Assembly (NCBI GenBank): GCA_935421135.1
Contig: OW285196.1
Location: 1,178,001 to 1,242,000 of the forward strand
DNA: 64,000 nt
Source of the DNA: Bugulina stolonifera
Lineage: Eukaryota; Bryozoa; Gymnolaemata; Cheilostomatida; Bugulidae
Direction of reading: 5' to 3'
Shown here: positions 3,181 to 61,902 of the stretch, one piece after another
Position numbering within the stretch: the stretch's first letter is position 1
How the letters are laid out: each line of letters opens with the position of its first letter
Notes under the pieces: model-generated
What the model was told of the DNA's origin: nothing
Database searches by the model: none
The model's input: the letters and a program-made list of their open reading frames with translations, nothing else
Made by a program: the position numbers and the translations under genes

Positions 3181-6100
3181 TTAACTTATGCCTTTCTGAA
3201 GCAAAATGACCTGCTGCACCGGCCTTTCAAGTATGGTACTAGAGAATACACGTTTTCCGGTGTTGTCAATTCCCGAGTTAGCCATGTTGATTGTGACTCT
3301 CCTTACCATGCCGTCGGCTCCTTCTGTCGTCTTGTCTACCATCCCAATTGACCATAGGTTTCTTGGAAGGTTGTCGTCCCTTACTAAGACTAAGTCCCCA
3401 CTTTTCAGGTTTGGTTTTGGTTGCTCCCACCTTTGCCTTTTGTTAATAGACGCTAGGTAGTCGCCTTTCCAGGCTTTCCAAAAATCATTAGCCAGTTGCT
3501 GCGATTTACGCCACATCTTAGTTCCATACACCTCCGTATCGTCAAAAATCCCAGGTGGTGGTGTAGTTCCAATTGTTTTGGCAGTGAGAAGGTGGTTTGG
3601 TGTTAACACCGGTATCTCTGGGTCGTTAACTGCACTTACGGAGATGGGTCTGCTGTTTACTGTAGCCATTGCTTCATAGAAGGCCACTCGCAGTCCACTA
3701 GTGCTCAGTCGCTGTTTGTATTTGCCCCCCATCAGAGCACTTAAAACAGACCGAATACTACGAATCTGTCTTTCCCATACTCCGCCGGCATGGCTCGCAT
3801 GTGGGGCGTTAAACTTAAATTCTATCTGGTTATTCTCGAGATATCTGGCTAAGGTAGATTTTGGGTCCAGACTATTCATCTCCCTTTGGAACTCGTTGCA
3901 GGCTCCGATAAAGTTTGTACCTTGGTCACAGTGAATGGACTTAACTGCACCCCGAAGGCAGATAAATGCCCTTAGTGCATTTATCATAGAATCTGCTGTC
4001 ATGTCATCCAGGATCTCTACATGTACTGCCCGAGAGTACAAACATGTGAGTAGGAGGCCCCAACGCTTCACTTCAGAACGACGTTCTTTGACTTGAAATG
4101 GCCCAAAGCAATCCATGCCAATATGGGTGAATGGTGCGCATGGTTCGAGTCTTGGTGCTGGTAGCTCTGCCATTATTTGCTCGACGGGCTTCCCTCTCAA
4201 TCTTTTGCACGTGATGCAAGTGTGAAGGCAGTGCATTACGAGCCTTGCTGCACCTACTATCCAGTATCCTGCATTCCTGATGGCCGCCTGTGTTGCATTT
4301 CTACCCTGATGATGCACAGAATTATGATGATGTCGTACGATAAGTGTAGAAACATGATGTTCTCTTGGGAGGATAATGCCGTGTTTTTCCTCAAAGCACA
4401 AGGTTTGTCCCTTGGCAGCCCGTCCACCAACTCGTAATAGTCCTTCCTTATCGATGAAAGGGTTGAGTTTGCGTAAGGGACTCCTTTTGTTGATGGGTTT
4501 GCCAGCTTTGACTTCTTGTAGCTCTTTGCCATAAGAACTTCGTTGCACTTTTGAGATTATTGTTGTAGCTGCTTCTTGAAGACTGGTGAGAGTTATGGGC
4601 TTCACTGCCCACTTATTTGAGGCAGTTTTGTGTATACTCTGTACAACTGCTATAGAACGTTTCAGCTTGTCCCATGTTGAGAATTTCTCAAATTTATTAG
4701 CAATTGGTGGCATGTTTGATGTAACCACAGCAGTTTTTAAGCTTTTGACCTCTAGATCTTTTTCATCAGAGTGAGCTGGGAACTTCTGGTTTTGCTCCAT
4801 CAATGGAATTACTTGTTTGCTTAGAAATTCAGGTCCAGAAAACCACATGGAATTCTTTAGCTGGTTACATAGCTTCCCTCTGGATGCTATGTCGGCAGGG
4901 TTCAGGTCGCCTGGCACGTGGAGCCATTGCGATGCTTCTGTTCTTGACAATATCAATCTGACTCGATTGTGTACAAAGGCTTTATAGCGTTTGGAGTCAT
5001 TGGTTATCCATCCTAGTGCTATCATGGAGTCTGACCAAAAGTACTCTCCATCTAGTTCCATATCTAGCTCATTGTGTAGCGTTTTGCTAAGTTGTGTAGC
5101 TACTACAGCAGACATTAATTCACACCGAGGGGTGGTGAACAGGCCTTTAGAGGGAATAACTCTAGATTTCCCAAGAAGGAAGGACATGTGAACTTGGCCT
5201 TGATCGTTGGTTTGGCGAATATATGAGCATGCTCCAATTCCAACATCACTTGCATCACAAAAATGATGCAAGTCTGTACGAACAACCTTACCAAAATCTT
5301 TTGGCTTAAAGCATCTTGATATAGTGATTTGTTCTAAGGCTGGTAATTGTGCCATCCATTTATTCCATTCACCAGCTATTTCTTCAGGGATCGCGTCATC
5401 CCAGCCAAGTTTCGCTTTGTTGGTCTTTTGCAGTATGTTTTTGCCAAGAAGTGTATAAGGGGCTATAAAACCCAGTGGATCATACAGTTGACTTATTATG
5501 GAGAGGATTCCCCGTCTGGTATCTGGCTTCGTTTTGACGTTATTAACGAATTTGAAAGCGTCTGTGTGCATGGACCATTGAAGTCCTAGAGTTCTTTGTT
5601 CTGGGAGGTGGCCACTAAATAGCTCCACATCCTGAACAGCTCTTTCTGTCTCTGGCAGAGAAGCAAGTACACTTTTACTGTTAGACGTAAACTTATGCAG
5701 TCTTAAGTTGCCTTTACCACATATCTCTCTGGCAGCCCATATTAGGTCAATTGCTTCAGCCTCGGACTTTATGCTTGTTACACCATCATCAACATAAAAG
5801 TCCCGCTTGATAAATGATGCTGCTTCGCTGGAGATGGCTTTGTTGTTCTCCGCTATTTTACGAAGACCATAAGTGGCCACCGCTGGAGAAGATGTGGCAC
5901 CAAAAAGATGTACTTTCATCTTGTAGGTCTGCGGGCGCTCTTCTTTGTCATGCCAGAGGAATCTCAGGTAGTCTCTGTCATCGGGGCTTACCAGAAAGTT
6001 ATAAAACATTTTCTGGATATCACAACTCAAGGCAATAGACTCTCTTCTAAATCTGCATAATATTCCTATGAGGGAATTCATCAGATCAGGTCCTTGGAGA

Positions 6101-8994: not shown

Positions 8995-9951
8995 GATGAC
9001 AAATATAGTGAGTGATATGTTATTAATTACTGTAAAATATGCATACTGGTGTAGTAAACTTATTCACTAATTAGATATGCAAACAAAACAAAAACTTACA
9101 GCTGACTGCAGACCACAAATATCCGACCCAGCCTGCCTGTTATAATGTACACTGGATTGGGTCCAGCAGCCCACAAAGCTGGAGTAGATGATGCAACTTA
9201 TTGAAAAATGGGTACACGCGCTTGCCGATAACAATTAAAATTTTGCTCTTTTATTTTGTTCTGGTAGATAGACCGGCCCCTGTTCAGTTTACAGGTAGGT
9301 TATAGTTGTTTGTTTTTTTTTTGTTCAAAAGATAATTTATGAGATGTACTACACAATAATTATGTTGAGGTGTTGTTATGTGATATTCTCACACAATCTC
9401 GATAGATATTGAACTGAATGTTAATAATAGTGACAAAATACAATGTTAATAAATAGAACACTGAATACTACTTATCTAGTCTTCTCTGTTGGAGAATCCT
9501 TGATGTGTTGATCACTTGTGGTTACGCTAGTGTTGAGTTAGTTGGCTGTCTGGGAAATATTTGTGTCATCAATGTTGAATAATACTCTGGTGTAATTTGT
9601 CGGGACGCTCCAGAAGGGTGGAGTAAATGACAAGTAGTTGTGATGAATAGGTTGTCGGGACGCTCCAAAAGAGTGGAGTAAATGACATGTAATTGCGGTA
9701 AGTCCAATAATCGCTTGGTCAGTATGGCTGACCCTCGCTGAGGTAAGTCCGCTAATTGGTCAGAATCTGCTGACTATTGGTTGACGAAGAATATATTAGA
9801 AGGTGTCAGGGACGCTCCGAATAGTTGGAGTAAATTGACTTAGTTCCTTGTTGTGAAGTAATATTGTTTGTGGTGTAATTGACTTAGTTCCTTGTTGTGA
9901 AGTAATATCGTTTGTGGTGTAGTTATCTCCTCCCGAAAGAAAAGACTTCAC
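8995..9951 (-). other. BEL/Pao 5' leader with internal repeats
   Basis: Untranslated leader between the 5' LTR and the gag-pol start. It holds three copies of a GGGACGCTCC...TGGAGTAAAT motif (about 9602, 9658 and 9809) and a tandem duplication of about 52 bp (about 9833-9925, phrase GACTTAGTTCCTTGTTGTGA). Next to the 5' LTR I see no TGG-starting tRNA primer site (it reads GTGAAGTCTTTTC on the minus strand), so the primer is unassigned. Repeats in a leader could serve packaging or internal initiation, but that is inference. Confidence 0.6.
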
Positions 9952-43650: not shown

Positions 43651-44785
43651 TGGTGCTATGGTACCAGTATCACACCTCTGTGCTATGGTACCAGTATCAC
43701 ACCTCTGTGCTATGGTACCAGTATCACAATTCTGTGCTATGGTATCAGTATCACACCTCTGTGCTATGGTACCAGTATCACACCTCTGTGCTATGGTATC
43801 AGTATCACACCTCTGTGCTATGGTACCAGTATCACACCTCTGTGCTATGGTATCAGTATCACACCTCTGTGCTATGGTATCAGTATCACACCTCTGTGCT
43901 ATGGTACCAGTACCACACCTCTGTGCTATGGTATCAGTATCACACCACTGTGCTATGGTACCAGTATCACACCTCTGTGCTATAGTACCAGTATCACACC
44001 TCTGTGTTATGGTACCAGTATCACACCTCTGTGCTATGGTACCAGTATCACACCACTGTGCTATGGTACCAGTATCACACCTCTGTGCTATGGTACCAGT
44101 ATCACACCCCTGTGCTATGGTATCAGTATCACACCTCTGTGCTATGGTATCAGTATCACACCTCTGTGCTATGGTACCAGTATCATACCTCTGTGCTATG
44201 GTACCAGTATCACACCTCTGTGCTATGGTACCAGTATCACACCTCTGTGCTATGGTACCAGTATCACACCACTGTGCTATGGTACCAGTATCACACCTCT
44301 GTGCTATGGTATCAGTATCACACCTCTGTGCTATGGTACCAGTATCACACCACTGTGCTATGGTACCAGTATCACACCTCTGTGCTATGGTACCAGTATC
44401 ACACCACTGTGCTATGGTACCAGTATCACACCTCTGTGCTATGGTATCAGTATCACACCTCTGTGCTATGGTATCAGTATCACACCTCTGTGCTACGGTA
44501 CCAGTATCACACCTCTGTGCTACGGTACCAGTATCACACCTCTGTGCTACGGTACCAGTATCACACCTCTGTGCTATGGTATCAGTATCACACCTCTGTG
44601 CTATGGTATCAGTATCACACCTCTGTGCTATGGTATCAGTATCACACCTCTGTGCTATGGTATCAGTATCACACCTCTGTGCTATGGTACCAGTACCACA
44701 CCTCTGTGCTATGGTACCAGTATCACACCACTGTGCTATGGTACCAGTATCACACCTCTGTGCTATGGTATCAGTAGCAGTACCA
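43651..44785. repeat. 27-bp minisatellite
   Basis: About 42 tandem copies of TGCTATGGTACCAGTATCAC+ACCTCTG, with variants GTATC/GTACC and CCTCT/CCACT. Because 27 is a multiple of three and the unit lacks stops in two frames, it yields 381-aa and 257-aa pseudo-frames. It ends about 130 bp beyond the stop codon of the Roco-caspase gene. Confidence 0.96.
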
Positions 44786-44911: not shown

Positions 44912-45073
44912 CTAGTTGGACTTCAGTGCTCTGGAGTCAAGTAGAGGAAATAAATAGAGTTTCCTGAAGTTGGTAAAAGTACAGCGGCATTCTGGGACAG
45001 CACCACCAGCCCATCTTCTATCACCCACTCTGTTCCTTCTGGCTTCACAAGCTCTCCTAACCCTGTGTTGTAT
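44912..45073 (-). CDS. Roco-caspase exon 13: end of caspase small subunit
   Basis: Acceptor CTTTACAG, phase 0, 53 codons plus TAG. It contains 'RVRRACEARR' and 'VPECRCTFTNFRKLYLFP', which correspond to the final helix and the conserved K-LYF-type end of caspase p10 subunits. The other frames of this exon do not continue the upstream phase. Confidence 0.8.
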   Translation of the reverse strand: MQHRVRRACEARRNRVGDRRWAGGAVPECRCTFTNFRKLYLFPLLDSRALKSN

Positions 45074-48000
45074 CTGTAAAGTGTTATATAAATACTATAT
45101 AACTGCCTAGCATATACAATACAGGTACAAGTAGTAGTGTTAGTAAGTTACAGGGGAGATAACTGTTTATTAGACTTACTATTTTAAACAGAGTCTCAAC
45201 ATCTCTGTGACAGGAATGTTTGTAGAATGTGGCCACAAGTATTCTGATGAATGGTGAACCATGAGTAGTATATCTTAGAGAGCTGTAAGCTACAACACAT
45301 ACATATACAGAACGTGACGTAAATTAACATAAGTAAGGTCTTTGGTTTGTGTACTACAGCCATGGTCTGGTCTTTCACCAAGACAGAAGCAAAAGTAGTG
45401 GTCCTCTCTATTTATTCTGGAACAGAGCCAAGCTACTTACTCAATCACAAACAAATAATGTCTAAACCTGTCAAAATCTCTTCATTAAAACTATGACTGT
45501 ACTTACATTCACTACTGGATTTCATTATAATGAAGTCATCCGCATCAAATATGACTCGTTCATTTGATGTGACATCATCAGTTAGTGTAGGTGGAGGTGT
45601 GACATCATCAGTTGGTGTAGATGGGGGTGTGACATCATCAGTTGGTGTAGATGGAGGTGTGACATCATCAGTTGGTGGAGATGGGGGTGTGACATCATCA
45701 TTTAGTGTAGATGGGGGTGTGATATCATCAGTTGGTGTAGATGGGGGTGTGACATCATCAGTTGGTGTAGATGGGGGTGTGACATCATCAGTTGGTGTAG
45801 ATGGAGGTATGACATCATCAGTTGTTGTGGTGTCATTATTGGATTCATTACTCTGCGTGTTAGTTGATGGCGGTACGACATCTGTCTCTACTGATGAAGT
45901 CACTGAATGTTGTGTATCAGTTCTATCTTCACTCACTACTCCTCTGTCTACTTCAGCTAAAATAATATAATAATTATGTTGTTTATACATATTCACTAAC
46001 ACTGAGTAAAATGAAATCTGGAAAAGGGGTGGGACCTGAAGATATCCCACCATATGCCTGGAAGAGGGATAGTTCGTCTGGCCAAGCAAAATCCCAGGCC
46101 AATAACCCTGCTGGCCTAGGCTGGTCGGCCAACTTGTAATTTTTATTTGTAGTCGCGAAGACACTAGCAAGGGTGTGGAAATTATTGAGCCACACAATGA
46201 AAGTCTGGAAAAGAGTGCTTTCCCAATTTATAAATTGGGAAAGCACTCTTTTCCAGATTTTCATTGTGTGGCTCAATAGTTTGATATACGAATAAATTCC
46301 ACACCCTTGCTAGTGTCTTCGCGACTACAAATAAAATTTATAAATTTACAATTTATAAATTGGGAGAGGACAACTTATGACCAATAGCTTGTTAGTGCCC
46401 ATGTGTTGTCGGCAACCAGTAGTTTGGCTTCATACCAGAGCAAGGTACTACAGGCCCTTTGTTTGCACTGTGATCACTTATGGAGAAGTACAGGGAGTGA
46501 CAGAGAGAACTGTATCTAGTGTTCATAGATGTTGAGATGAATTATGGCATTGCTGCATGAGAGCCACTGAGATAGCTGAGCCTTATGTAAGAGCAGTGCA
46601 GGATTTGTATAAGGGGAGTATTACAGCAGTTAGAACAGCTGTAGGAATGACGGCTTCCTTTAATGTGGAAGTAGGTTTGCACCAAGGATGAGCATGAGTC
46701 TATTTCTATTACAGAGCAAAAGAGGGAAGAAATGGAGTGGACAATGCAGACAACGTAGTACATAGAACAACCAGAGAGGACATATAGATTAAAACTGAGA
46801 AGTGGAGGGAAGAGCTAGAGAAGAGAGTATATGGGAGTCGGAGTGCCTAAAGTATAAGGTTTCAAATACCTGGGTTGTCTACTACAAAGTGATGGGAAAT
46901 GTAACAGGGAAGTGAAGAAGAAAGTGCAAGCCGGGTGGAAATCTTGGAGGAAACTCTCAAGAGTGTTGAGTGATAGAAGGATAGCTCGGAACCCAAGGGA
47001 AAGATTTACCAAATTGCTGTGAGACCAGCTATGATATGTGGGCTAGAAGCACTAGCAACCACCAAGAGGTATGTAGAGGAGTTGGAAACAACAGAAATGA
47101 GTATGCTACGCTTTGGACTGGGAGTAACGTGATTGGACAGAATCAGATAAATGAAAGAATAACAGGAACGGCTCACATTACGGTGGTTTGGTCATGTGTT
47201 GAGGAAAGAGAAGAATCATCTAAGAAAGAAAATGCTTGAATTTGAAATATTAGGAAGAAGACGCAGGGGTAGACCGGGGAGAAGGCATCTAGATGTAATC
47301 ACAGAGGACATGAAAACAACAGGAGTGACCATGGAACTGGCAGAAGATAGAATTGAATGGAGAGAGAAAGCAGGAAGGTATACAAGATGTAGTATATATA
47401 GTGTGATGTCTGACAGACAGGTAGGAGTTGTATTACCTTGTACTAGTACAATGTACATACTAGACACCAAGTAAGCCAGTATAAGTACACATGTACTTAC
47501 TCCCAGAGCAGGCCTGAACTATTATCAGCTTTGGTTTTCCTTTCATTGCAGGGAAGTTGGAAGCAGTGAGAAGGTTTTGTATAGTAGAGAGGGGTAAGTA
47601 GACGTTGTCAGAACAGAGGATTTGGTCATTTGAAGTACCATGACTCATCAGGATTAGTATGAACATTGAATATCTGCAGTGAACAGGTAGAGTTGTCTCC
47701 TCCTTGATTAAACTCAGCATTTCCTACAATATACAAGTACACTATAATTATAGTAATATATGGTAATAACTATACACTGTATAGTAGTGTACTGGGAGTA
47801 TATCAGATTCTCACCTCTGACGGCAGATCTGTGACATCAACCTCTTCACCCACCATCTCAAATTTCATGTGTTCAAACAACCTCTTCAGATTATCAAAGT
47901 CTACACTGGCACCCGGTCTTCTATGACGAGGACAGTCAGTAAACAGCTGATTGTTTATTATGAGGAATCTACCTCTAACTCCGTCTCTCATAGGATACAC

Positions 48001-51000
48001 CTACAGATATTCACCAGAGGATAAGAGTATAGAATATTATGTATTAGTAGATGTACAGACAGTAGCAGATAACTCCTAATAAATACATAGTGCTGGTACC
48101 TTAGTGGTATTTAGATAGAGACTCCTAACTGACTGTCTAGTGCAGGGTTTAAGGTCCAGAGTTATACAGACATTGTCTTCTCTCTCCAGATCTACATATC
48201 CTTCCTCCTCTATGTCAGATAAATCACTCTCTACCTCCGTCTGTGGTGCAGAGGTCTGTGGGAGAGTAGTATTATCTGGTGCAGAGGTCTGTGGGAGAGT
48301 AGCACCATCTGGTGCAGAGGTCTGTGGGAGAGTAGTACTATCTGGTGTGGAGGTCTGTGGGAGAGTGGTACCATCTGGTGCAGAGGTCTGTGAGAGAGTA
48401 GTACCATCTGGTGTAGACATCTGTGGGAGAATAGCAGCATCTGGTGTAAAGGTCTGTGGGAGAGGAGTACCATCTGGTGTAGAGGTCAGTGGGAGGTCTA
48501 CCTTGAGGTCTACAAACAATGTCCAGAACTGAAGGTTAGTTTCAATCGACTAATAGAATAGCTGCAGGTAACATCTGAGCACATGAATTAGTCTACTGGT
48601 CTATATAGATAAATGTAAACTATAAGTCTACTTTATAGAACAAACTACCTCCAGCTGGAGAGAGTGGTAGACGCTGTTGTTCCAGTTGACGTAGATACTT
48701 CTCTAGTTTGACTTTCTCTCTCTTTGTTAAATGGTAACCTGAATAAGACAAACTGTTACGGTAGTTCACCTTAATATGTATATAATATAGTATAATACTT
48801 CTACTGCAAAGTACTTGTGTTTATGAACATCCAAAGAGTTTGTTTTTATACAGTAAGTGGAGTCCCATACACAGTTGGTACAAAATGCAGGTACAGCTCT
48901 CTTGATTAACTTCCTGTTTGGAAAGATAAGCTGTCTACTAAGCTAGGACAGCAGAAATGGAAAGAAAGGTGAATCACTAAAACAACAGGATGCCGGGCCA
49001 GGCTTGAACATAAATAACATGTCATCCCTATTCTTACTCACACCTGTCTATTTAAACACATACATAACTTACATGGAAATCTGAGAGGTTTGGGGACAGT
49101 GAGTTGTCTTCTCTCTGTTGACTCATCATTATCACAGGCTACAGGTTCCACCCCAGAGAATGTGGTGACAGAAGGTAGACCATCTCTGGACAGATGTTGG
49201 TGGAAACATCTGAACCAACTTGGGTTGATGGTTGTATCTGGGTGGTCTACGTTCAGGAACAGACAGTGGGAGCAGTAGAAGGAGAGTACAGGACGTGCTG
49301 CTTTCCATACCCTCGTTGCGTTGGTTACAATATGCTGTGCGAGTCCTAGCAGACGTTTCCAAGAGGGACCTAGCTGCTCCACACAAGTTGATACTTGTAG
49401 GGTGACTCTACTGTTGCTATAGTCATGTATCAGGTAGGTGGAGGTGGAACCGTATAGGATAGTAGCTCCGTTAGCAGCAACCTTCACTGTGCTAGTGTCA
49501 TCGGACAGGACGTTCAGAGCTACAACGGTCATGAGTCTGTATACGTATTCTGGCACAGTGAGTCCATTAAACAGGATGTCGAGTCTCAGCTGCAGGTAGC
49601 CATCAGAAAGCCAGGCTCTGTCCATGTATTTGGTGGAGAAGTAAGGAATGATGTAGCCATCACCCTGTGACTGTTTCACTGGGCCATGGATGATGTGGAA
49701 TGATTGTAGAAGCTCTACAGCTACATCTTCAGGGAACTCGGATTCAGTTTCCAGCAGGTGGGAGAGAACAGCCTCATCTAGAATACCACTCAACATGAAC
49801 CTCTTCACCAGCTTCTCAAACAGCTGTTTCTCTATCACCCGGTCCTTGTGTTCAAACGCTGTGACACTCTCGAGTCTTTCTTTCCACTTGACGTCTGCAT
49901 GGTGATGAAACAAGATGGCAATCATGTCTGTAATCTTTGACACCTGATGGAATAGATAGTCTTTGAGGGCTGGTTTATCTGTAAACCTGAGAACTGTGCC
50001 GGAGTTATGAAGATATTGTAGAATCACCTCACAATCATCACCAGGGAACTCTTTCTTCACATCTGATACGAGTAGATAAGGTTTGCTAGTCTGCTGCTCT
50101 ACGTACGTACTTACACGCTGCCAGTTCCTCGGTAGAGTTACTGTGAACCTGACACTACGTGACTCTAAGCATTTCTTCAGACTTTCTATCCTAGCATCAC
50201 TCTCCTTGTCATCAAACACAAATATGTCTTCTCGAGCAATCACGGGTATTTTGGTATCTGAGAGATGTTCCACACTAGATATCCCTCCATCTACCCCAGC
50301 CAGCCTCCTCTCCTCCTGTAACAGCTCCCTCCGAATATCCTCGGTCAACTTGAGAATGTTCTCTACAGACTCACCAAACTTCTGCTTGGTCAGCCTATCC
50401 TGGTGCGTAAGAACGAGGATCGGAGCACCTAAGCGAGGACATGCCAGGTAGAAATGAGACAGCCAATCAAAGCAGAGACGTCTTGTAGCCTCCTTGGGCC
50501 CTCTACGAGTGGACAGGTCCACATATTCCTCCAAGTTGACTACAATGACGGGAATACACTGCTCTTTCGTGGCTAGTTGATAAGCTATGTGATAGATTTC
50601 GTGACCCGCAAAATCTACAAACTTCAAAACCAAGTCCGATAGTTGCAAGCTCTCTGTCTTGAAAACCTGAGTGGCTTCATCTGCAGCGGAATTGTCTTCT
50701 CTAAATGTCAAACAACGCTTTCCATATTTAAGACTCCGTATGAGGCTGGTTTTTCCTGCCTTGAGCTTACCCATAACAGCTACAGTGACTGCAGTCACCC
50801 GAGTCCCAGTTTGAGCGAGTAGATCCTTAAAGTATGTTTGTATAGCGGATATACCTTGTTCACACACGGCATATGGAGGGGATACTAGACTCTTACACCC
50901 ACTACAGTCTATCACTCCCAACTTACTTAGATTTAGTACGTCATTGTGTATTGTTTGTAGGTGTTTGTTGTTGCTTATATTTAGTGTCTGGAGATTAGAC

Positions 51001-54000
51001 AGCTGGTATACGACTGTGGGGAGTTCTGTAAACTTGTTGAAAGACGAACCATAGCTGGAGTTGGAGATATCCAATGTGTGTAGGTTGGTCAGCTGACACA
51101 GACTAAAACAACGCATACATGCACATTAGTACATGGTACATGTAACATTCAAGTAACTAATAGTATACACTGGTACTCTATCACATAATATTACATGGTA
51201 ACAGTCAAGTAACTAATAGTATATACTGGTACTCTATCACATACTATTACATGGTAACAGTCAAGTAACTAATAGTATACACCATAGAGGTAACACCCCA
51301 TAGAGCAGGAACTTAAAAATTTTCCGCTATTGAACGCCGATTGGCCACTTGATGCCAGTTTTCTCCACGAGCGGCCATGATGCGATGGGGATTTCGTCCG
51401 TTTGTTTACATTAGTTACCATTACAATTATATATAAAACATAAAATTTTTCAACGCTGTTATTTACAGATACTATTTGTGTAAAATGTTTTGAATTTATA
51501 TCTAAACTGTTTAATAATATCTCTGCTTTGTCACAATAATAGTGATTTTAAAAATCTCTTTGTAAAATAGGACTTTAAAGAAAAATAAGAATGGATGTTT
51601 ACTCGACCAAATAATACTAGTAACCGACTAGCACGGCAGCGTATATCGGTAGAAAGTCTGTGAATGCGTTGATTGGTCAACCAAAACAAAACCGCATGTT
51701 ATTGGGTATTAAAATTTCTAATCGCTAACATGATAGGCTTATTGTACAGAATTATCTACCCATAAAGGACTTTCGATAGCACGTGAACAATTCTCTGTTC
51801 ATTTCAAAAAATGAGCGTGGAGCTAGTTGTACTAGTGGCATTCCTGGAACAATAATTATACAATCTGACAATCTCATATAGTTAACATTGGTGTGATTGC
51901 AAGAGTGTACTTTGGGTTTCTTTGGACTAACAGTGTGGTTAGTAGGAATACAGTACGGTTGTTGTGAGTTAGAACTGGAAAGACAATGAAATAAATTCAA
52001 TTGTTATTTATTCTTATTGTAGAATTATTATTATATTATTGTTGTAAAATTAAAAAATTACTCAATAGTAAAATTAAATAATATAATAAGTTATAGCAAG
52101 TATAATATTGTTTAAAATTAATAAGCACATTCATTTATCCAGTAATAGTAGAATCTCTCGGTACTGTTATTGATTGATTGAGGCTGAGTTAAATTAACTT
52201 TGCTCACTGTCACTGCTGTACCTATAGTTATTAATTATAGTAATGGTAATAGGCTACTACTACGTTGTAAATACAGTAATACTATCAGGTGAAGTTGTGA
52301 TCGCGACTCACTAGCAATTTATTACAATAGTCACAGATCACAATCACTCACTCATTAGATCAGTGACTACACTATACCTACTAACTATTATTTTATTAAT
52401 TCAGGTGATTTCCATAGACTATCTATCAACATGAACATGTTTATCATTGAATTGATTATATTTATATAATTATTTTATAATATTAATATTTGTGATTGTA
52501 AATTAATTTTTTTGTAATAATAATTATAATTAATATAATAGGCTATAAATATAATAGACCTATTATGATTATAATTATTGAATGTTAGTATAGGCTAACT
52601 TTATATTGCTAGGAAATTTATTTAAGAAATCTATAAACTATCAATGACTTTGTTTCACAGATGTGAACTTTCCTTTGTCCATTCCTGTCTAGAGTTTGAT
52701 TCCGAGGCTTTGTAGTATCTAATTGCCTAGCACAGTTAGTAGCCTAAATACATTATAATCAAAGATCTACACCAGCTTAGCATAATCTTAGAATGGTTTC
52801 AAGCTAAACTATAACTTAAAGGAAAGATGATGTGGAAGGAAAAATCTAAATTTATTAGGGCTGTTAATTAGTCATTAAACATTATAATGTAGAGCGTTGA
52901 ATAGTCTTATGCAAGTTTATAGGCCTACGTCATTTATTTAATTTCTTGGTAACAGTTTGTTTAACCAAAACTTACCTAGCCTTTCTACCTACAATAGAAT
53001 AGGTGCAGGTTGAGTTGTAACATTGATTTGTTATTTATAGGTTGGAGATTAAAGTGAAATCTGGATACCACGATGCACATCGCCACAACTCTATGTGCGG
53101 TGCTCATCCATCATACCCATCAAGTACTGTAGGTTATGTTTATGAACTCTTTTCCTGGGACTCGTGCACACACAAACTGTAGCAACTGCTTCCCAATTAG
53201 AAATGGGTTTCACGATTAAAGTGAGATGCTTGATTTAATTAAGGCTTGTTGTTTTATATATATGTGTGAGAAGGTACTTGGTAGATTTCTGTCGTCTATT
53301 ATAGAGCTGTGATGAATTTAATTCACAGGTAACATCCAGAGTGATCAACTATATCAACATATATGTCTTATCGAAATCGTACTTTATTTTACTCTGATAT
53401 AATGTGATGCCAATTTGGCAAGAATTATGTAACTACTAATGGCTGTACTATTATGGTAGGACAGTAGGCATTGAACATGTTTCGTTACTGCTTTATTATT
53501 TGGATCTAATACCTCTTATATGTCTGTAAACTATTTATCTGTGGTAAGCGTGAAGCATTTATTTATCTGGTATCAATTTCCTAATATAGGTCTACTAGAC
53601 AGAATATTGATGTGTTGTGCTGATGCTGTGAATTTTGAAGAGCTGGCTGACCTTATTCCTAAGAATGGCGAGGAGCGACTTCTGAATATTGAATAAGAGT
53701 TCTTATGCTATTTTTATTCAGTAAATATTTAAAATAGATTTGGTCAAAAGAGTGGCATTTATACTCCATGTTATGAATTGGTTTTGTTTGTCTACATAAA
53801 TGTTTTTATTTGTAATATGCAACTTCTGCAAATCTGTTCTACATATAGAAATACACCTATTAATACTTATACTCTATCAATCATTTTATACCAGGGTAAA
53901 CCATAGGACGTAGGACAATTAACAACTACAGTAGCTTTAGCTGTATTGTAATTTGAGGTAAAAGTAAAGTAATCTTGCCTACTGAAAGTCAAAATAACTA

Positions 54001-57000
54001 GAACTAGGAGCTGGGTAATAATAATTTTGTGATGTACTTATATACTAGTATACAATATTTGCAATTACCATGCAGTTACTATCAAAGTTACAAAATATAA
54101 TAAATACAATAATTATGTTGGTCTGAAATAATTGGAAAATATGTGTGCAACAGAAAATTTCAGATTATTGGTAGCAAAGAACAAATTTTGACTACTAACT
54201 AAATGACTAACTAATCATAGCAGCGCATAGGTAACTAATGTAAACAAACGGTAACTACCCCAACACATCATGGCCGCTAGGGATGAAAAGTGGCATCACA
54301 AAATTTACCGGAGTTCCTGCTCTAGGGGAGATAACTCTATGGTATACACTGGTACTCTATCACATACTATTACATGGTAACAGTCAAGTAACTAATAGTA
54401 TATACACTGGTACTCTATCACATACTATTACATGGTAACAGTCAAGTAACTAATAGTATACACTGCTACTCTATTACATACTATTAGTAGTATACACTGG
54501 TACTCTATCACATACTATTACATGGTAACAGTCAAGTAACTAATAGTATACACTGGTACTCTATCACATACTATTACATGGTAACAGTCAAGTAACTAAT
54601 AGTATATACTGGTACTCTATCACATACTATTACATGGTAACAGTCAAGTAACTAATAGTATACACTGGTACTCTATCACATACTATTACATGGTAACAGT
54701 CAAGTAACTAATAGTACACACTGGTACTCTATCACATACTATTACATGGTAACAGTCAAGTAACTAATAGCATACACTGGTACTCTATCACATACTATTA
54801 CATGGTAACAGTCAAATAACTAATAGTATACACTGGTACTCTATCACATACTATTACATGGTAACAGTCACGTAACTAATAGTATACACTGGTACTCTAT
54901 CACATACTATTACATGGTAACGGTCAAGTAACTAATAGTATACACTGGTACTCTATCACATACTATTACATGGTAACAGTCAAGTAACTAATAGTACACA
55001 CTGGTACTCTATCACATACTATTACATGGTAACAGTCAAGTAACTAATAGTATACACTGGTACTCTATCACATACTACTACATGGTAACAGTCAAGTAAC
55101 TAATAGTATACACTGGTACTCCACATACTGTCCAATTCAAAGAATACAAGGTAGACTGTCTAAAGGTATTGATATACAGTAGATATAAATAGTACTATGG
55201 GAGTAGAATATAAATATATACTATAATCTATATCAATGTTACTAATATTAGCCTTGTCTAACAACAGTAGTGGATACAAGTCATATACATGTACTATAGA
55301 CAGTTATTACATCATGATAATAACAAATATACTGATAAATCTACACCAATAGACTGGGTGATACTGTAGTATTGGTACCTTACATTCTCTGATGTGGAAA
55401 ATCAAATGATTTCAGTTAATATTGTATGTGTGTCTGGGACAGTAGAGGTACTTATTCTGCTACAGGACTGTCCTAAACCAAGTGGAACACTAACTACACT
55501 AACACTATATACATGTACATATAATACACTCACCTCTGTGGGAGGTCTGTCAGTTGACACCCCCACAGATGTAACTCAGTTAGTGACCTCAGTCTACACA
55601 CTACATCAGGTAATCCTCTGGAGAAGTTGTTATTCCCCATATCCAGTACTTGTAGCTGTTGGAGAGACTCCATACTATATAATATAATAATTATACATGT
55701 AATTATTATTTCACAGAGTTGATCTCAATAATAAGTAGAGCTGTTAGTGACAATCTAAACATGATAATAACAAACATTCTGCTAAATCTACACCAATAGA
55801 CTGGGTGATACTGTAGTATTGGTACTCAGTATATCATAGCCTTAGTACCATGATTATACTGTCCAATTCACAGAATACAAGGTAGACAGTCTAAAGGTAC
55901 TGATATACAGTAGATATAAATATTACTATGGGAGTAGAATATAAATATACTATAATCTATATCAATGTTACTAATATTAGCCTTGTCTAACAACAGTAAT
56001 GGATACAAGTCATATATATGTACTATAGACAGTTATTATATCATGACAATAACAAATATACTGATAAATCTACACCAATAGACTGGATGATACTGTAGTA
56101 TTGGTACCTTACCTTCTCTGATGTGGAAAATCAAATGATTTCAGTTAATATTGTATGTGTGTCTGGGACAGTAGAGGTACTTATTCTACTACAGGATTGT
56201 CCTAAACCAAGTGGAACACTAATAGTCCATCAGCCAACCATCAAAAAGTGGCTTAGTTTTTGAAGTTCGCTCCTGACCTCTCCAATCTACACAAATTTTT
56301 GGCTCCAAAGTAAACAGAACCTGAATTTTATGATTCTGGAAACTAACTCTCTGAAATATGTTGACGGAGACCTCAAATTTTAGGTCAAAGTTCACCCCCT
56401 CAGCAAAAATTGCCAATATTTGCCATTTTTTGTGGTTTGCAAACCTTCTGACACAAAATCCATAATGCATGAGCTCTTCATATTTCAACATAATGTTACT
56501 ACAAGCAGTCTAGTGGTCTGTGTCAAAATTCATAAGTGTCAGTTCAAAGGTCTTATAATTACAGGGAAAATTCCTTCGTTACAGAGGGGATAATTCCCTG
56601 TAATAGAAAACCTTCTGGCACCAAATCCATAACACATAGGCTCTTCATATTCAACTATGATGCTACCACAAGCAGTCTAGTGCTCCATGTCAAATTTCAT
56701 GAGTGTCAGTCCAAAAGCTCTATGATTAAAAGATAAATCATTTCGTTACGGAGGGGGATAATTCCTAATAACAGCAAATCATTGAAATTTCCACAAACTG
56801 CAGAGATTTTTGGTGTTATCGTAAACAAGGCCTCAATCTCATGATTCCAGAATAGTTTGACAATGACTTTCTTCCTATTTAAGGATGGTGTTACTACATT
56901 TAGTGCAATACCCTGTGCATAATAACATGACAACCTGTGCAGACTTTCTACGGAGAGCAACATCTCTTTTGTCACAGAGGAAATAACACGTAAAATAATC

Positions 57001-60000
57001 ATTCATGAAATTTTTAGAATGTTATAAACATTTACTGTTACACAGGTGACCTTCCAAGTATACTCTAGTGCTGTTCTACTGTATCTACTTGAGAACTTAT
57101 AAGCCATCAGTGTATCTTGTAGTGTAGTTTCAGCATCAGCCCAGCGATTGTAAGATAATATTGATGTACTTTATTACAATTAAAGATACAGGTTAGGTAG
57201 TATATTATATTCAGTGACAAAGCATACAATATATGCAATAACCCATGACATAATGACTTCTTGCAGGGACAATAAGAACTAGAGTTAATAGACTCAAGTT
57301 GGAAGCAAAATGTGCTGTAATATGAAACTAAAAAATTTATTATAATTTGATTCCGTAAGATACAGGTAACCATTCAGGTAACCATAGGATACAGGTAACC
57401 ATTCAGGTAACCATACAGGTAACCATACAAGTAACCATACAGGTAACCATACAAGTAACCATACAGGTAACCATACAGGTAACCATACAGGTAACCGTAA
57501 CACAAGCACAAAACATGACATGCATATAAATTTAAAATTAGAATTTAGGCTAAACTTACAATTAATATACAGGCATACAAGTACCTATATGTCATCTGGT
57601 ACTGTGTACTTGCATGTTATTGGTCTTCTTACAGGAGCAACAGACAGTATGTAACATGTTAGGATAAAGAGTTTCACCACTAAATAACTTTGTAGGTAAG
57701 ATCTACATCATTCTCTCATCCATAGTTAACAGGGCTCAGTTTATGGACTCTTGTCATCATCACCATCGGTGGTACTGTATGCTGCTGAGGTTGATCGTGA
57801 TTCAGTTGAGGTAGTAACACAACACCATTGTTTCTAGCCAGTCCGTCCTAGCAAAAGACAAAAATACACAAACTCATTTTTTTAAAAAGATGTTTCCAAG
57901 GATATGAATTGCTAAACAACAAATTATATCTGTTTTTACCCTTCATAATGTAAGCGCATGTACGCGTGCTTGTAATTCATGTTTGAACATGTTTGAACAT
58001 AACGGAGAAAAATGAAGAGTTCTGCTTCAAGGAATTCTTACATGTACAATGTACATGTTCTTACATGTACAATGTACATGTATATAAAACTCACCGACTT
58101 GCATGACCAGCCCCTAGCAGCTCTCACTGCCAGGTGCCAGTGCTGGCCAACTCCCTGTGAGAAAGGCCCAGATAACATGGCCTTTTCTTTGTGCAGGGGT
58201 AGAGGAGTTGCCTTGAAGCCATGACCCCAAGGACTTTAATATGTGGCACAGGAGCAATTGTGGCTGGATGCTCTTCCTAACACCACCGTGACCGGGGTTT
58301 GAACCTGGAACCTTCAGCATGAAAGCTCAGCATCCTAACCCCTAAGCCACGGCTGCTCCCTTACAATGTACATGCATATGTCATCCATCAAAGATATTTT
58401 ATGATATCCAATCAACACACATCTAGCCCCTTACATCAGCAGTATGAACATACTTACTAAGGCAGGTCTGTCAGCAGACTTGCTGTGCATATCTTGTAAC
58501 GCTGGTATGGATACAGACGCCTTATCACTCACCAATCACATCTTCACGGTCACTTTTCAGCAATGCAACTTGCACCTAAAACAGCAAAGGCTTTACAACT
58601 GTAGGTAATGAAATATAAATGTACTGGTCCAGAAACAAAGAATTATTCTAGGGTGTAGGTGGTAAAATATTAGTAGAAGAATAATAGGAGTGGAAGGGCT
58701 GTGTGCATGTGAAATAACAGAAGGGCAAACATAATTGCAGTCTTCACAGTGAGATTAATGCCACAGTTTTAATGCTGGTATCCTCCTGAAAATATCTTGT
58801 ACATGTAAATATGGAACATAACGACAACCTCGATTGAACTACTTGAACATTACGCTTAATTATATACATTGAAATCAAAATGAAATTGAATTTTATATTG
58901 CATTGCTAGGCAAAATGTACACGTAGGCTACTATAGCAGTCTTGCTACAGTATAACGTATAATAACAGAGCAACACAATACAAGACTACAAATAGTATAA
59001 TTTTGTATACACTGGATCTTTCTATAATCATAATAAATAATTATAGGCTACATGTGTATTTAAAACTACATTTATTTTATAAATTTCTTGTGGATCAAGA
59101 TCATGCAAAAACATTTTGCTGATTGCGATCATTCTTATCACATTTAATTACATTATTATAAAAATAATATATTGAGTAATTATAAATAATAGATTTGTGA
59201 CGCGTTATGAGCATAATTCACATGGTAATGGAATAAGCAATAAGACTTTCATAAAATAATGATTATTATTAATTATAATTATGGATAAATCCATGTTTAC
59301 ATTAAAAAATAATTGCTATAAATTTTAATATATAAATAAGTAAACTGAAATTCTTATCCACGTCACAAAATCAAGAAAATTAAGTTCAAATTTTTCAACC
59401 AACTAGCTACTATATCTGTTGAATATAAACTTTCTACTAGTCAGTCACATACCTTTTCCAGAGAAACTGATGCCATATTTAGTCTTTGGTTTCTAGTGAT
59501 TCTCATGATAGACCTATATTATGTGCTGTAAACCCTAGAGTGAGTTAACTCTCAGTTCAAACTCCTTGTCTTATGTCTAGCTGTTTCCATTCTTCAATGA
59601 ATGTCTATGTCAATATTTATTTAGAGAACAGTTTGTCAGAGCTGCAGAACTTCTTGTACTGTCATTCTTTGGATGCTCCATTTAACTTTCAAGATAACCA
59701 ATATGGAGAACTGAATGAATTTATCATTAAACATCTGCTACAAAAGTTACCAAATCTAGTATCCACTATCTATCTTTGTTGCTACTACACTTTCTTAGAT
59801 GACAGGAAATGCATGCAACTGACCAATGAAAGTTGGCGTAGGGGGATTCTAATAATTTCCAACAGCGAGTAAGGAGCAGACAACTCTAATTTTAAAAATT
59901 TCGAAAAAATTAAATTTCCACTCTTTTGTCAAGTGATTTCGAGGGGTTAGTAAGTGGATTTGAACTTCCCATATTTTAATCTATCTGTATACAAAAAATT

Positions 60001-61902
60001 GCGTAGATTGGAGAGGTCAGGAGCGAAAAGTCACAATTTTGCTACTCAGCTGATGGACTATAACTACACTAACACTATATACATATAATACACTCACCTC
60101 TGTGGGAGGTCTGTCAGTTGACACTCTGACAGATGTAACTCAGTTAGTGACCTCAGTCTACACACTACATCAGGTAATCCTCTGGAGAAGTTGTTATACC
60201 ACATATGCAGTACTTGTAGCTGTTGGAGAGACTCCATACTATATAATATAATAATTATACATATAATTATTATTTCACAGAGTTGATCTCAATAATAAGT
60301 AGAGCTGTTAGTGACAATCTAAACATGATAATAACAAATATACAGATAAATCTACACCAATATACTGGGTGATACTGTAGTATTGGTACTCAGTATATCA
60401 TAGCCTTAGTACCATAATTATACTGTCCAATTCACAGAATACAAGGTAGACAGTCTAAAGGTGCTGATATACAGTAGATATAAATAGTACTATGGGAGTA
60501 GAATATAAATATACTATAATCTATATCAATATTACTAATATTAGCCTTGTCTAACAACAGTAATGGATACAAGTCATATATATGTACTATAGACAGTTAT
60601 TACATCATGATAATAACAAATATACTGATAAATCTACACCAATAGACTGGGTGATACTGTAGTATTGGTAGCTTACCTTCTCTGATGTGGAAAATCAAAT
60701 GATTTCAGTTAATATTGTATGTGTGTCTGGGACAGTAGAGGTACTTATTCTACTACAGGATTGTCCTAAACCAAGTGGAACACTAACTACACTAACACTA
60801 TATACATATAATACACTCACCTCTGTGGGAGGTCTGTCAGTTGACACTCATACAGATATAACCCAGTTAGTGACCTCAGTCTACACACTACATCAGGTAA
60901 TCCTCTGGAGAAGTTGTTACCCATCATATACAGTACTTGTAGCTGTTGGAGAGACTCCATACTATATAATATAATAATTATACATGTAATTATTATTTCA
61001 CAGAGTTGATCTCAATAATAAGTAGAGCTGTTAGTGACAATCTAAACATGATAATAACAAATATACAGATAAATCTACACCAATTAATAGACTGGGTGAT
61101 ACTATAGTATTGGTACTCAGTATATCATAGCCTTAGTACCATGATTCTACACAGGAATACAAGAGAGTGACACACAGAGGAAACACATACATTGTGTACT
61201 ATATAATAATGAACACTAGACATGTGTGGATACTCTACATAGGCTCTCTCTGTACTATATTATATATATGTATATACTACTAGTTATAATATATATGGTA
61301 GGAGGGAAGGTACATGTACATACCAGTCTAGTGAGTGATGTGACTTTATACCATGTATCTCTAGATGTGTCACACGTGGACAGATAACATTTAGTGGTGG
61401 CATCACATTACCTAACTGGATATATAAGTGTGTTATATAGTTAGAGCCCACATCTCTAGCTATATCCCCGGAGTTGTCTACCCTCTTCAGCTTATCCTCT
61501 GGTATATAAGGTATTCCATCAATCTCCTCTTCACCTGAATGTCTGTACCAGACTTTACATCCTACAATATAATAATATACATACACTAAGTATAAGAGGT
61601 AATATAATACTATATAGTATACAGTATAACTATTATATATGTACTAACTCTGTATTAATTACTGATTTATATACACTCTAACACTGTACATCTATGTGTC
61701 TGCTGTAAGTGTAAGTAAACAATGTAAGTATACAGTATATAGTTACAATACAGTCTATCAGTATAATATTATACCATTGAATTCACCACTAAACTCTACT
61801 ACTCACTGTACAGTGTATCCACCTCTAACACTGCTTATAGAATAGAATAATACACATACAGTATGTAATATATAACATCTACTCACCAAGCATGTTTCCC
61901 AT
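44912..61902 (-). CDS. LRR-Roc-COR-caspase fusion protein (about 1,444 aa, 13 coding exons)
   Basis: Exons (minus, 5' to 3'): 61887-61902, 61324-61561, 60821-60961, 60098-60238, 55534-55674, 49073-51102, 48649-48738, 48100-48509, 47815-48000, 47501-47723, 45503-45956, 45180-45282, 44912-45073. All have AG/GT borders and agreeing phases; they sum to 4,335 bp including the stop. Approximate domains: LRRs 60-320; Roc GTPase from 330 with P-loop 'GKLKAGKT' (337-344), 'DFAGH' (389-393) and 'THQD' (458-461); COR and tail to 900; Asp-containing 11-aa repeats 935-1020; caspase large subunit 1070-1206 (His near 1159, Cys near 1203); 10-aa repeat linker; small subunit 1340-1444. Roco proteins are GTP-regulated scaffolds or kinases; caspases cleave after Asp in cell death and inflammation. 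The fusion suggests a self-contained sensor-effector. Adjacent genes joined by misread splicing are possible but would have to keep phase at every junction. Confidence 0.82.
45180..45282 (-). CDS. Roco-caspase exon 12: caspase small-subunit core
   Basis: Acceptor TAGCTTACAG, donor ATA|GTAAGT. The phase-2 entry gives 'SLRYTTHGSPFIRILVATFY', aligning with the family block S-W-R...GSWFIQ. The Arg of 'SLR' corresponds to the substrate-pocket Arg of the small subunit; the usual Trp is Leu. A second in-frame reading is blocked by TAA, which fixes the join. Confidence 0.85.
45503..45956 (-). CDS. Roco-caspase exon 11: interdomain repeat linker and small-subunit start
   Basis: Acceptor TTATTTTAG, donor GTAA|GTACAG (the overlapping GTAAGT four bases earlier would give a frame with a stop). 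It starts 'EVDRGVVSEDRTD', like the residues after the caspase active site, runs through eight copies of a 30-bp unit coding TDDVTPPSTP, and ends 'VIFDADDFIIMKSSSEC', matching the ADFL-type start of the small subunit. The linker is therefore a coding minisatellite. Confidence 0.85.
46139..46338. mobile_element. Fold-back element in caspase intron
   Basis: Two arms of about 90 and 106 bp meet at TCCCAATTTATAAATTGGGA (centre 46230/46231). They pair through CACTCTTTTCCAGA, GTGTGGCTCAATA, CACCCTTGCTAGTGTCTTCG and CTACAAATAAAA, with two mismatches and a 16-bp insertion in the right arm. No internal coding sequence. Confidence 0.88.
46390..47410 (+). pseudogene. LINE (RTE/L1-like) reverse-transcriptase 3' part, degenerate
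   Basis: Multiple frames carry recognisable LINE pieces: 'VEVGLHQG' (family VGLHQGSALSP), then 'AVRPAMICGLEALATTKR', 'MSMLRFGLGVT', 'LRWFGHVLRKEK', 'RRRRGRPGRRHLDVITEDMK' and 'EDRIEWREKAGRYTR'. This order matches the end of a LINE polymerase. Many stops and frameshifts make it dead. It lies antisense in the intron between caspase large- and small-subunit exons. Confidence 0.85.
47501..47723 (-). CDS. Roco-caspase exon 10: caspase catalytic His and Cys
   Basis: Acceptor TATTGTAG, donor GGGA|GTAAGT, phase 0 to 1. It encodes 'EMLSLIKEETTLPVH', 'FILILMSHG' with the catalytic His, and 'KPKLIIVQACSG' with the catalytic Cys. The usual pentapeptide is QACRG/QACQG; Ser here is unusual. The Gln before Ala-Cys, part of the Asp pocket, is kept. 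The sequence joins exon 11 as QACSG-T-EVDRG, like executioner caspases. Confidence 0.92.
47815..48000 (-). CDS. Roco-caspase exon 9: start of caspase large subunit
   Basis: Acceptor TATCTGTAG, donor GAG|GTGAGA, phase 0-0, 62 codons. It encodes 'VYPMRDGVRGRFLIINNQLF' (family Y.M....RG..LIINN..F) and 'RRPGASVDFDNLKRLFEHMK' (family R.G...D...L...F). The Arg of 'RRPG' corresponds to the large-subunit substrate-pocket Arg. Confidence 0.92.
48100..48509 (-). CDS. Roco-caspase exon 8: Asp-containing 11-aa repeats
   Basis: Acceptor TTGTTTGTAG (an upstream acceptor at 48529 is out of phase), donor AAG|GTACCA. After 'DLKVDLPLT' come seven 33-bp units coding S-[TA]-P-D-G-T-T-L-P-Q-T, then an acidic stretch ('DLSDIEEEGYVDLEREDN') leading into the caspase. 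This is the position of a caspase prodomain linker. Confidence 0.82.
48649..48738 (-). CDS. Roco-caspase exon 7: short basic helical segment
   Basis: Acceptor TTATTCAG, donor GGAG|GTAGTT, phase 1-1, 90 bp. It encodes 'YHLTKREKVKLEKYLRQLEQ', which should be helical. No known domain was recognised. Confidence 0.75.
49073..51102 (-). CDS. Roco-caspase exon 6: last LRRs, Roc GTPase, COR
   Basis: A 2.03-kb exon, acceptor TTGTTTTAG, donor CCAT|GTAAGT, phase 2 to 1. LRRs: 'LTNLHTLDISNSSY', 'LSNLQTLNISNNKHL', 'LSKLGVIDCSGCKSL'. Roc: P-loop 'GKLKAGKTSLIRSL', switch 'VDFAGHEIYH', 'APILVLTHQDRL' in place of the NKxD motif, as is usual in Roco proteins. COR follows ('DVKKEFPGDDCEVILQYLHN', 'GYIIPYFSTKY'). 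The tail has a 'CSHCLF' Cys pair like MFHAS1-type Roco proteins. No kinase domain follows, so it is not LRRK. Confidence 0.93.
51147..51282. repeat. 56-bp minisatellite, left part
   Basis: About two and a half copies of ATAGTATACACTGGTACTCT+ATCACATACTATTACATGGT+AACAGTCAAGTAACTA, lying in the intron 5' of exon 6. It is interrupted at 51283 by a DNA transposon and continues at 54342. Confidence 0.92.
51283..54341. mobile_element. 3.06-kb non-autonomous DNA transposon with 8-bp target duplication
   Basis: Bounded by GTATACAC at 51275-51282 and 54342-54349, a part of the 56-bp unit that should occur only once. The ends start CATAGAGGTAACACCCCATA and, inverted, CATAGAGTTATCTCCCCTAG. Inverted similarity extends about 130 bp (AGAGCAGGAACT, GCGGCCATGATG, GTTTGTTTACATTAGTTACC). 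An 8-bp duplication fits hAT (also P or Merlin). No transposase frame; AT-rich interior. A short exon-like segment at about 53597-53695 follows CCTAATATAG ('DAVNFEELADLIPKNGEERL') and may be captured DNA. Confidence 0.88.
54342..55122. repeat. 56-bp minisatellite, right part
   Basis: About fourteen further copies of the 56-bp unit, one shortened near 54480. Units are nearly identical. Confidence 0.95.
55534..55674 (-). CDS. Roco-caspase exon 5: LRR cassette 1
   Basis: Acceptor CTATATAG-like (ACTATATAG|T reversed from forward), donor AGAG|GTGAGT. It encodes 'MESLQQLQVLDMGNNNFSRG' and 'CRLRSLTELHLWGCQLTDLP', two LRR turns. Variable positions: D, G, N in the first repeat; E, H, W, G in the second. 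Confidence 0.88.
57355..57497. repeat. 12-bp minisatellite
   Basis: About eleven copies of AACCATACAGGT with small variants, inside the TAA-flanked element. Confidence 0.9.
58100..58362 (-). repeat. tRNA-derived SINE, copy 2
   Basis: On the minus strand it begins GGGAGCAGCCGTGGCTTAGG, with a B-box-like GGTTCAAACCCCGG and then GTGTTAGGAAGAGCATCCAG and AATTGCTCCTGTGCCACATA. This matches the copy at 17748 but keeps a longer head. It is nested in the TAA-flanked DNA transposon. Confidence 0.82.
59573..59872 (+). CDS. Unrecognised 99-aa frame inside DNA transposon
   Basis: The frame has protein-like composition ('NSLSELQNFLYCHSLDAPFN', 'DNQYGELNEFIIKHLLQKLP', 'TNESWRRGI') and is longer than chance frames nearby. 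No family was recognised. It could be captured host coding DNA or a transposase remnant. It starts at a TTG; no promoter or splice evidence. Confidence 0.25.
   Translation: MSSCFHSSMNVYVNIYLENSLSELQNFLYCHSLDAPFNFQDNQYGELNEFIIKHLLQKLPNLVSTIYLCCYYTFLDDRKCMQLTNESWRRGILIISNSE
60098..60238 (-). CDS. Roco-caspase exon 4: LRR cassette 2
   Basis: 141 bp, phase 2-2. Same as cassette 1 except H, W, Y in the first repeat ('VLHMWYNN') and S, E in the second ('LHLSEC'). Confidence 0.88.
60821..60961 (-). CDS. Roco-caspase exon 3: LRR cassette 3
   Basis: 141 bp, phase 2-2. Differs by Y, M, G in the first repeat ('VLYMMGNN') and G, Y, Y, E in the second ('TGLYLYEC'). It is the first cassette after exon 2. 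Confidence 0.88.
61324..61561 (-). CDS. Roco-caspase exon 2: N-terminal region and LRR entry
   Basis: Acceptor ATATTGTAG, donor ACTG|GTATGT, phase 1 to 2. It encodes 'CKVWYRHSGEEEIDGIPYIP', then 'ITHLYIQLGNVMPPL' and 'VTHLEIHGIKSHHSLD', a probable LRR cap. Phase 2 matches any of the three LRR cassettes. Confidence 0.8.
61887..61902 (-). CDS. Roco-caspase exon 1: start codon exon
   Basis: ATG GGA AAC ATG CTT G|GTGAGT gives 'MGNML' with a phase-1 donor that fits exon 2 and yields MGNMLGC. Gly2 followed by Cys7 would suit N-myristoylation and palmitoylation, so membrane tethering is possible. The 5' UTR probably continues upstream; a tttcacag-type acceptor lies about 13 bases before the ATG. 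Confidence 0.6.

Follow-up and report, generated by a model that had tools for sequence, protein, structure and literature searches.

A diversified gene family in the bryozoan Bugulina stolonifera predicted to join leucine-rich repeats, a Roc-COR GTPase and a complete caspase in one chain

The gene described here lies in a 64,000-nt stretch of the Bugulina stolonifera genome (hereafter the window), located on the contig labeled C10 in this work (chromosome 10 by size), and consists of 13 exons on the minus strand between window positions 44912 and 61902. Spliced together, the exons form a single frame of 4338 nt, i.e., 1445 codons and a terminal stop, with GT-AG borders at 12/12 introns and compatible phases throughout, which bears out an earlier note on this DNA in which the 13 exons were joined in phase to a length divisible by three. 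From N- to C-terminus, the predicted protein contains an MGNML start and a short domain (exons 1-2), leucine-rich repeats (LRRs), a Roc domain, a COR domain, a linker, and a caspase. Exon 1 (61887..61902) supplies the MGNML start, a possible N-myristoylation signal; the MG start is common to the window protein and to P0001 and P0048, two of the 15 proteins from a second bryozoan, Watersipora subatra, discussed below. Exon 2 (61324..61561) encodes the N-terminal domain (VWYRHSG..ITH), with blastp matches in 4/15 Watersipora proteins (P0001, 6.5e-15; P0048, 7.7e-10; P0049, 3.2e-8; P0052, 9.6e-6). Exons 3 (60821..60961), 4 (60098..60238), and 5 (55534..55674) are each a 141-bp LRR cassette of phase 2-2, exon 5 matching Pfam LRR_4 at 2.4e-9, and exon 6 (49073..51102; 2030 nt) encodes the final LRRs, the Roc GTPase (GKLKAGKT, DFAGH, THQD), and COR.

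The linker from COR to the caspase is encoded by exon 7 (48649..48738) and exon 8 (48100..48509), the latter with an SDLSDIEEEGY motif and 33-bp repeats that yield seven copies of [TA]PD, each followed by G, S, A, or N. The caspase large subunit (p20) starts in exon 9 (47815..48000; YPM..IINN, with the S1-pocket Arg) and continues in exon 10 (47501..47723; SHG, QACSG). Exon 11 (45507..45956) encodes an Asp/Thr/Pro-rich inter-subunit linker with 30-bp repeats and the start of the small subunit (p10), which continues in exon 12 (45180..45289; YSSLRYTTHGSPF) and ends, with the stop codon, in exon 13 (44912..45073). A CxxC...CxxC pattern after COR is seen both at the end of exon 6 (window 49073-49300) and in Watersipora P0001; the first CxxC is invariant across a 43-row alignment, in the window the second pair is partly missing, and the whole looks like a small zinc site.

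When the window's open reading frames (ORFs) containing the exons were compared to Pfam, the C14 caspase family was matched at 6.5e-13 (exon 10) and 1.6e-4 (exon 9), and COR-A (1.3e-6) and Roc (3e-4) both fell below the Pfam cut-off. The identity of Roc and COR, for which, as for Peptidase_C14, the earlier note had proposed a domain search, was therefore settled by an AlphaFold2 (AF2) model and Foldseek. The Roc-COR model reached a predicted local distance difference test (pLDDT) score of 84.2, and the first 26 Foldseek rows were all Roco proteins; the model matches LRRK1/2 and prokaryotic Roco, with the fold agreeing across the Roc-COR tandem. Among the features of the Roco family, the Roc motifs (P-loop, DxxG, THxD), a COR directly after Roc, and the tandem fold are all present, although the caspase after COR sets the window protein apart from group 1 Roco proteins, which are LRR-Roc-COR only. 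A PDB search with the Roc sequence alone retrieved LRRK2 at an E-value of 0.12, too weak to use; one with a sequence profile was swamped by LRR proteins; and a full-length model of Watersipora P0002 built from six sequences (pLDDT 50.5) was discarded. For the caspase, the window contains a p20 with the His/Cys dyad (SHG, QACSG) and a p10, as in family C14, and the S1-pocket Arg, Gln, and Arg of Asp specificity (RPGASVD, QACSG, SLR). It aligns to caspase-3 at 3.8e-18, mainly through p20; p10 alone aligns weakly to caspase-3 and clearly to the Watersipora p10 parts, and Watersipora P0001 matches Pfam C14 at 8.3e-38. No Pfam match to NACHT or NB-ARC, nor to a CARD, DED, or Death prodomain, was found in Watersipora P0001-P0006 (E-value 0.01) or in ten window pieces (E-value 1) covering the exons other than 1, 12, and 13.

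A caspase behind Roc-COR is an arrangement met again on each of the 11 large contigs of the Bugulina genome. A genome search with the Roc-COR exon as query yielded at least 69 rows on 11 contigs (65 of 90 candidates scored), at 29-93% identity besides the self-match, and merging rows at 3 kb left at least 61 loci; the family counts are thus lower bounds. The Peptidase_C14 search gave at least 139 rows (150 of 192 candidates scored), merged to at least 95 loci. At 57/61 Roc-COR loci, a Peptidase_C14 match lies at most 9 kb downstream on the same strand, against a chance expectation of approximately 0.11 pairs. Extending the distance to 12 kb gives 61 pairs, all with the caspase downstream (60 on the same strand and 1 on the opposite strand), and no caspase lies upstream of any of the 61 loci within that distance. 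Of the unpaired loci, C10:1160515 likely has its caspase exons 10-13 on the same strand at L036, after a gap of some 33 kb, and C1:11554797 is apparently the front half of a gene whose second half, at C1:11564272, has a caspase; for C11:3170592 and C9:15967340, no caspase match was found within 12 kb. The locus in the window is therefore a member of a family of about 60 loci with diversified LRR cassettes. As separate observations, the paralog made up of L015 with L035 and L036 (C10:1125797-1162548), with likely caspase exons 10-13 about 33 kb past exon 9, contains either a giant intron or a disrupted gene; 38/95 caspase loci have no Roc-COR partner within 9 kb; and C9:8971374 and C9:8987412 are caspases resembling family members with no Roc-COR in the fetched stretch.

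Public protein searches retrieved 15 Watersipora subatra proteins, all 15 of which match Roc-COR wholly or partly. Roc-COR and caspase occur in one predicted chain in 11/15 (P0001-P0005, P0008, P0048-P0052), a share that is biased in that one protein search used the caspase part as its query, and 9 of these 11 also have LRRs by pattern count. The same architecture, which the earlier note had proposed to look for in related genomes, is thus found in a second bryozoan. A caspase was present in 5/6 rows of one protein search and in 3/6 named Watersipora rows of another, while all 10 rows of the caspase-part search, query counted, were from Watersipora. An SDLSDVE-like linker motif between COR and the caspase is common to both bryozoans. 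Judging by source name, no non-bryozoan protein with Roc-COR and a caspase was retrieved by these searches, whose reach extends to proteins of similar length that share words with the query. The Roc-COR exon also has relatives encoded on short contigs of 2.1-10.9 kb from ENA, lgn, and JGI (P0010-P0023, P0025-P0027, P0029, and P0030), perhaps animal DNA in metagenome data.

Homologous exon borders were compared in 20 fetched paralogs and scored only where the alignment reached the border, with exon matches accepted at E-values of at most 1e-3 (any match for exon 7; at most 0.2 for exon 8). Acceptors were AG in the window's phase in 68/68 cases and donors GT in 74/75, the exception being exon 7 of L026. 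Exon order and borders recur in the 20 paralogs, though not all exons were found in all of them: exons 7 and 8 found no match in several distant paralogs, exon 9 none in L013x and L022, and exons 12-13 none in L013x, L014, L017, and L030. We then compared the ratio of nonsynonymous to synonymous substitution rates (dN/dS) by gene part. Between the window and L018 (dS 0.57-1.32), it was 0.13 for Roc-COR, 0.11 for linker exons 7-8, 0.08 for p20, 0.40 for the inter-subunit linker, and 0.11 for p10. For close paralogs, the corresponding values were 0.30, 0.53, 0.16, 0.38, and 0.06 against L016x; 0.28, 0.64, 0.21, and 0.34 against L014, whose fetched stretch ends without p10; and 0.35, 1.62, and 0.19 (p20 by exon 9 only) for Roc-COR, linker, and p20 against L015x. 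Against L036, exons 10, 11, 12, and 13 gave 0.07, 0.18, 0, and 0.59. Taken across L018, L016x, L014, and L015x, these values show the COR-caspase linker to be coding and usually under purifying selection, with exceptions.

These comparisons bear on whether the locus might instead hold a pair of neighboring genes, one for an LRR-Roco and one for a caspase, duplicating jointly as a cassette and working together as receptor and effector. The evidence here is genomic sequence, and two Watersipora models, P0006 and P0009, stop short of the caspase exons, directly behind the linker motif where exons 8 and 9 meet; a caspase-less form and an annotation cut are both possible. Nevertheless, the borders that would separate two genes are kept in matching phase (exon 6 donor 19/19, exon 8 donor 11/11, exon 9 acceptor 15/15), the linker exons are coding and constrained relative to L018, the separately annotated Watersipora proteins are single-chain in 11/15 cases, and a caspase is never upstream of Roc-COR within 12 kb and on the opposite strand in 1/61 pairs. 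We therefore regard the two-gene arrangement as highly improbable. The earlier note had named two findings that would undo its single chain of LRR-Roc-COR and complete caspase: separate transcription units, which phase continuity disfavors as judged from the gene sequence, and an assembly error between 48.6 and 49.1 kb, which is countered, since paralogs and a second species would not be expected to repeat such a join. The chain itself is supported by the borders of the 20 paralogs, by purifying selection on most parts, and by the Watersipora models, and a chance chain of exons, an assembly error, and a single-species artefact are ruled out by the paralogs together with Watersipora.

Nucleotide-binding and catalytic residues were then read across the family. 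All 21 Bugulina genes have the P-loop and DxxG, and 19/21 have THxD by pattern. The caspase could be a regulatory or dimerization module of the single chain rather than a protease effector; inactive caspase-domain regulators exist, such as cFLIP, named in PMC8195603, and the S1 Gln is replaced by His in one subfamily. The catalytic His and Cys, however, occur in every exon 10 that was read (the window, 19 paralogs, and, for the split gene, L036), 14/15 of the paralogs whose exon 12 match is a true one retain the small-subunit Arg (L032 has Lys, as do Watersipora P0048 and P0049), and dN/dS for p20 and p10 is 0.06-0.21, which together make a purely regulatory caspase quite unlikely. In the window, 26 Asp among the 142 residues of the p20-p10 linker, with the Asp sites of the COR-caspase linker, suggest self-release. 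The corresponding linkers of Watersipora P0004, P0005, and P0048 have one Asp each, so self-release is not generalized here, and an Asp-repeat self-cleavage linker as a family-wide feature is unsupported.

On the sensor side, using the peptide of one LRR exon as query yielded at least 150 rows (150 of 278 candidates scored), many in tandem arrays. Among the 150 listed, 122 lie 5' of a Roc-COR exon on the same strand within 25 kb, none lies near Roc-COR in another orientation, and the remaining 28 are without a Roc-COR over that distance. Similar cassette exons at C9:10130855-10142652, with no Roc-COR found within 25 kb, are either an orphan array or an unscored gene. Fifteen copies (three in the window, six in L040, and six in L041) share the 141-bp length, the borders, and phase 2, and encode 15 different peptides. 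The two xxLxLxx strands contain ten x positions, and all seven codons (7/7) with at least three amino acids fall on them (chance 2.2e-6); these positions are canonical but were fixed after the alignment had been viewed and so are not blind. Over the 15 copies, the proportions of nonsynonymous and synonymous differences (pN and pS) are 0.275 and 0.087 at the x positions and 0.0096 and 0.030 elsewhere; pN above pS at the x positions fails in 1.6% of codon bootstraps. The comparison shows the 15 cassettes to vary at what are predicted to be ligand-facing positions, in a pattern indicative of diversifying selection.

On at least two occasions, sensor and caspase also appear to have been exchanged, as judged from pairwise identities with exon 10 standing for the caspase. 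L013x and L017 have window-type Roc-COR (93% and 89%), yet their exon 10 is 53% like that of the window and 86% like that of L019, whose Roc-COR is 68% like theirs. Similarly, the Roc-COR of L022 is 86% like that of L023, while its exon 10 is 83% like that of L027, with Roc-COR at 43% for this pair. The genes at L013 (with L034), L017, and L022 thus apparently carry Roc-COR halves joined to caspases from other subfamilies, an arrangement that could have arisen by recombination in the intervening intron or by gene conversion acting on the big exon.

A receptor-caspase of this kind might serve development, tissue remodeling, or zooid regression in place of immunity or self-recognition, and caspases do have developmental roles. 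Recognition of changing ligands fits better with the approximately 60 loci, the tandem LRR cassettes, the diversifying selection on the binding face, and the swapping of effectors, and we consider the developmental role rather unlikely, if less so than a regulatory caspase. Our preferred reading, which we hold to be probable, is a diversified family of single-chain receptor-caspases, each with a predicted LRR sensor, Roc-COR switch, and full caspase, for immunity or self-recognition. Several points weigh against it. Besides the bias in the Watersipora share, the one-Asp linkers, and the two reservations on the LRR positions, P0050 is without the front of Roc, and 4/15 Watersipora models (P0006, P0009, P0024, and P0028) are without a caspase. 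Stops occur in 7/69 Roc-COR rows, so some copies look broken, and HACSG replaces QACSG in six paralogs (L013x, L017, L019, L020, L023, and L024). Constraint on the COR-caspase linker is uneven, as in L015x (1.62), L016x (0.53), and L014 (0.64), and the 0.59 for exon 13 of L036 comes from three changes.

Bringing two domains together activates caspases, and the dimer state of Roc-COR proteins changes with nucleotide. For a receptor-caspase, we infer transcripts spanning the gene, a ligand, activation by dimerization, self-cleavage, and an outcome, as follows. A microbial, damage-derived, or allogeneic ligand would bind the LRR cassettes on their variable concave face, in a sensor that may be lipid-anchored, and binding would shift Roc-COR in its GTP cycle and its dimer state. 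A pair of caspase domains would then come together, leading to proximity activation and cutting of the inter-subunit linker; the caspase may free itself at Asp sites in the COR-caspase linker, and the outcome would be local proteolysis or cell death. More tentatively, and with somewhat less than even confidence, we propose that bryozoans have a germline-diversified repertoire of some 60 autonomous, adaptor-free receptor-caspases, in which arrays of interchangeable LRR cassettes, perhaps also spliced in alternative combinations, would provide every gene with its own binding face, and sensor and caspase halves would be exchanged by recombination in the intervening phase-1 intron, serving immunity and perhaps colony allorecognition.

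Elsewhere in the window, a 27-bp tandem repeat of 41.6 copies (43653-44776) lies directly 3' of the gene, with several frames open on both strands, and an uninterrupted minus-strand ORF of 1960 aa spans 3181-9063, its product resembling an LTR (long terminal repeat) retroelement polyprotein.

Both halves of the protein belong to known families, and their union and diversification appear undescribed. No Roco-caspase paper was recognized among the open-access papers listed (preprints outside their scope), in line with the earlier note, to which no described animal protein joining Roc-COR to its own caspase was known; likewise, for bryozoans, a colonial phylum, no study of caspase or immune-receptor genes was evident there by title and opening of the abstract. 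The genome paper for B. stolonifera (PMC10213821) gives ERR10123683 as its poly-A RNA-seq data. The available portions of a Flustra genome paper (PMC13326412) and of a review of immune diversification (PMC13428168) make no mention of Roco or caspase. A Roco review describes three groups, none with a protease in the text available ("protease", 0 occurrences; PMC6337361). Group 1 (prokaryotic Roco and MFHAS1/MASL1) has the same order of LRR, Roc, and COR and the same tandem fold, but is LRR-RocCOR only according to the available portion of that review (PMC6337361), the caspase being extra in the Bugulina gene. LRRK1 and LRRK2, among the first-ranked structural matches, share the LRR-Roc-COR core, with a kinase as C-terminal effector where the Bugulina protein has a caspase. 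If the prediction is correct, this would be a Roco protein with a protease output, in which signaling from Roc-COR to effector could be read via a caspase substrate.

NLR inflammasomes use a NACHT ATPase and CARD/PYD adaptors. They resemble the Bugulina architecture in having an LRR sensor, an NTPase switch, and a caspase output, and differ from it in that the Bugulina protein has a Roc-COR GTPase and a covalently attached caspase; it would be an inflammasome-like sensor without adaptors. The nearest animal precedent is in amphioxus, whose LRR-caspase and TNFR-caspase hybrids join receptor directly to caspase, as here, and were proposed to be linked directly to cell death; the accessible text does not mention Roc (0 occurrences; PMC2575513), in contrast to the Bugulina gene. 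If true, the bryozoan family would be one more way in which animals couple recognition by LRRs to caspase activity, in addition to NLR-adaptor-caspase and receptor-caspase hybrids. In sponges, likewise sessile marine animals, Death-like/TRADD-N proteins have undergone a lineage-specific expansion and carry effector domains, among them a caspase in some cases, but the part of PMC8195603 available mentions TRADD-N and Death-like domains and no Roc-COR switch. AP-GTPase-COR or caspase parts also enter into combinations in prokaryotic conflict systems, and no Roc-COR-caspase chain was met in the available part of PMC7159879. Finally, brown algal ROCO candidate receptors have LRR-Roc-COR with separate, symmetrical phase-2 LRR exons in tandem that shuffle and vary, a pattern found here as well, although the algal exons are 72-bp single-LRR units with no other domain described in the portion available (PMC11378527), as opposed to 141-bp units and a caspase in Bugulina. 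This parallel between LRR cassette arrays suggests repeated evolution of diversified Roco receptors.
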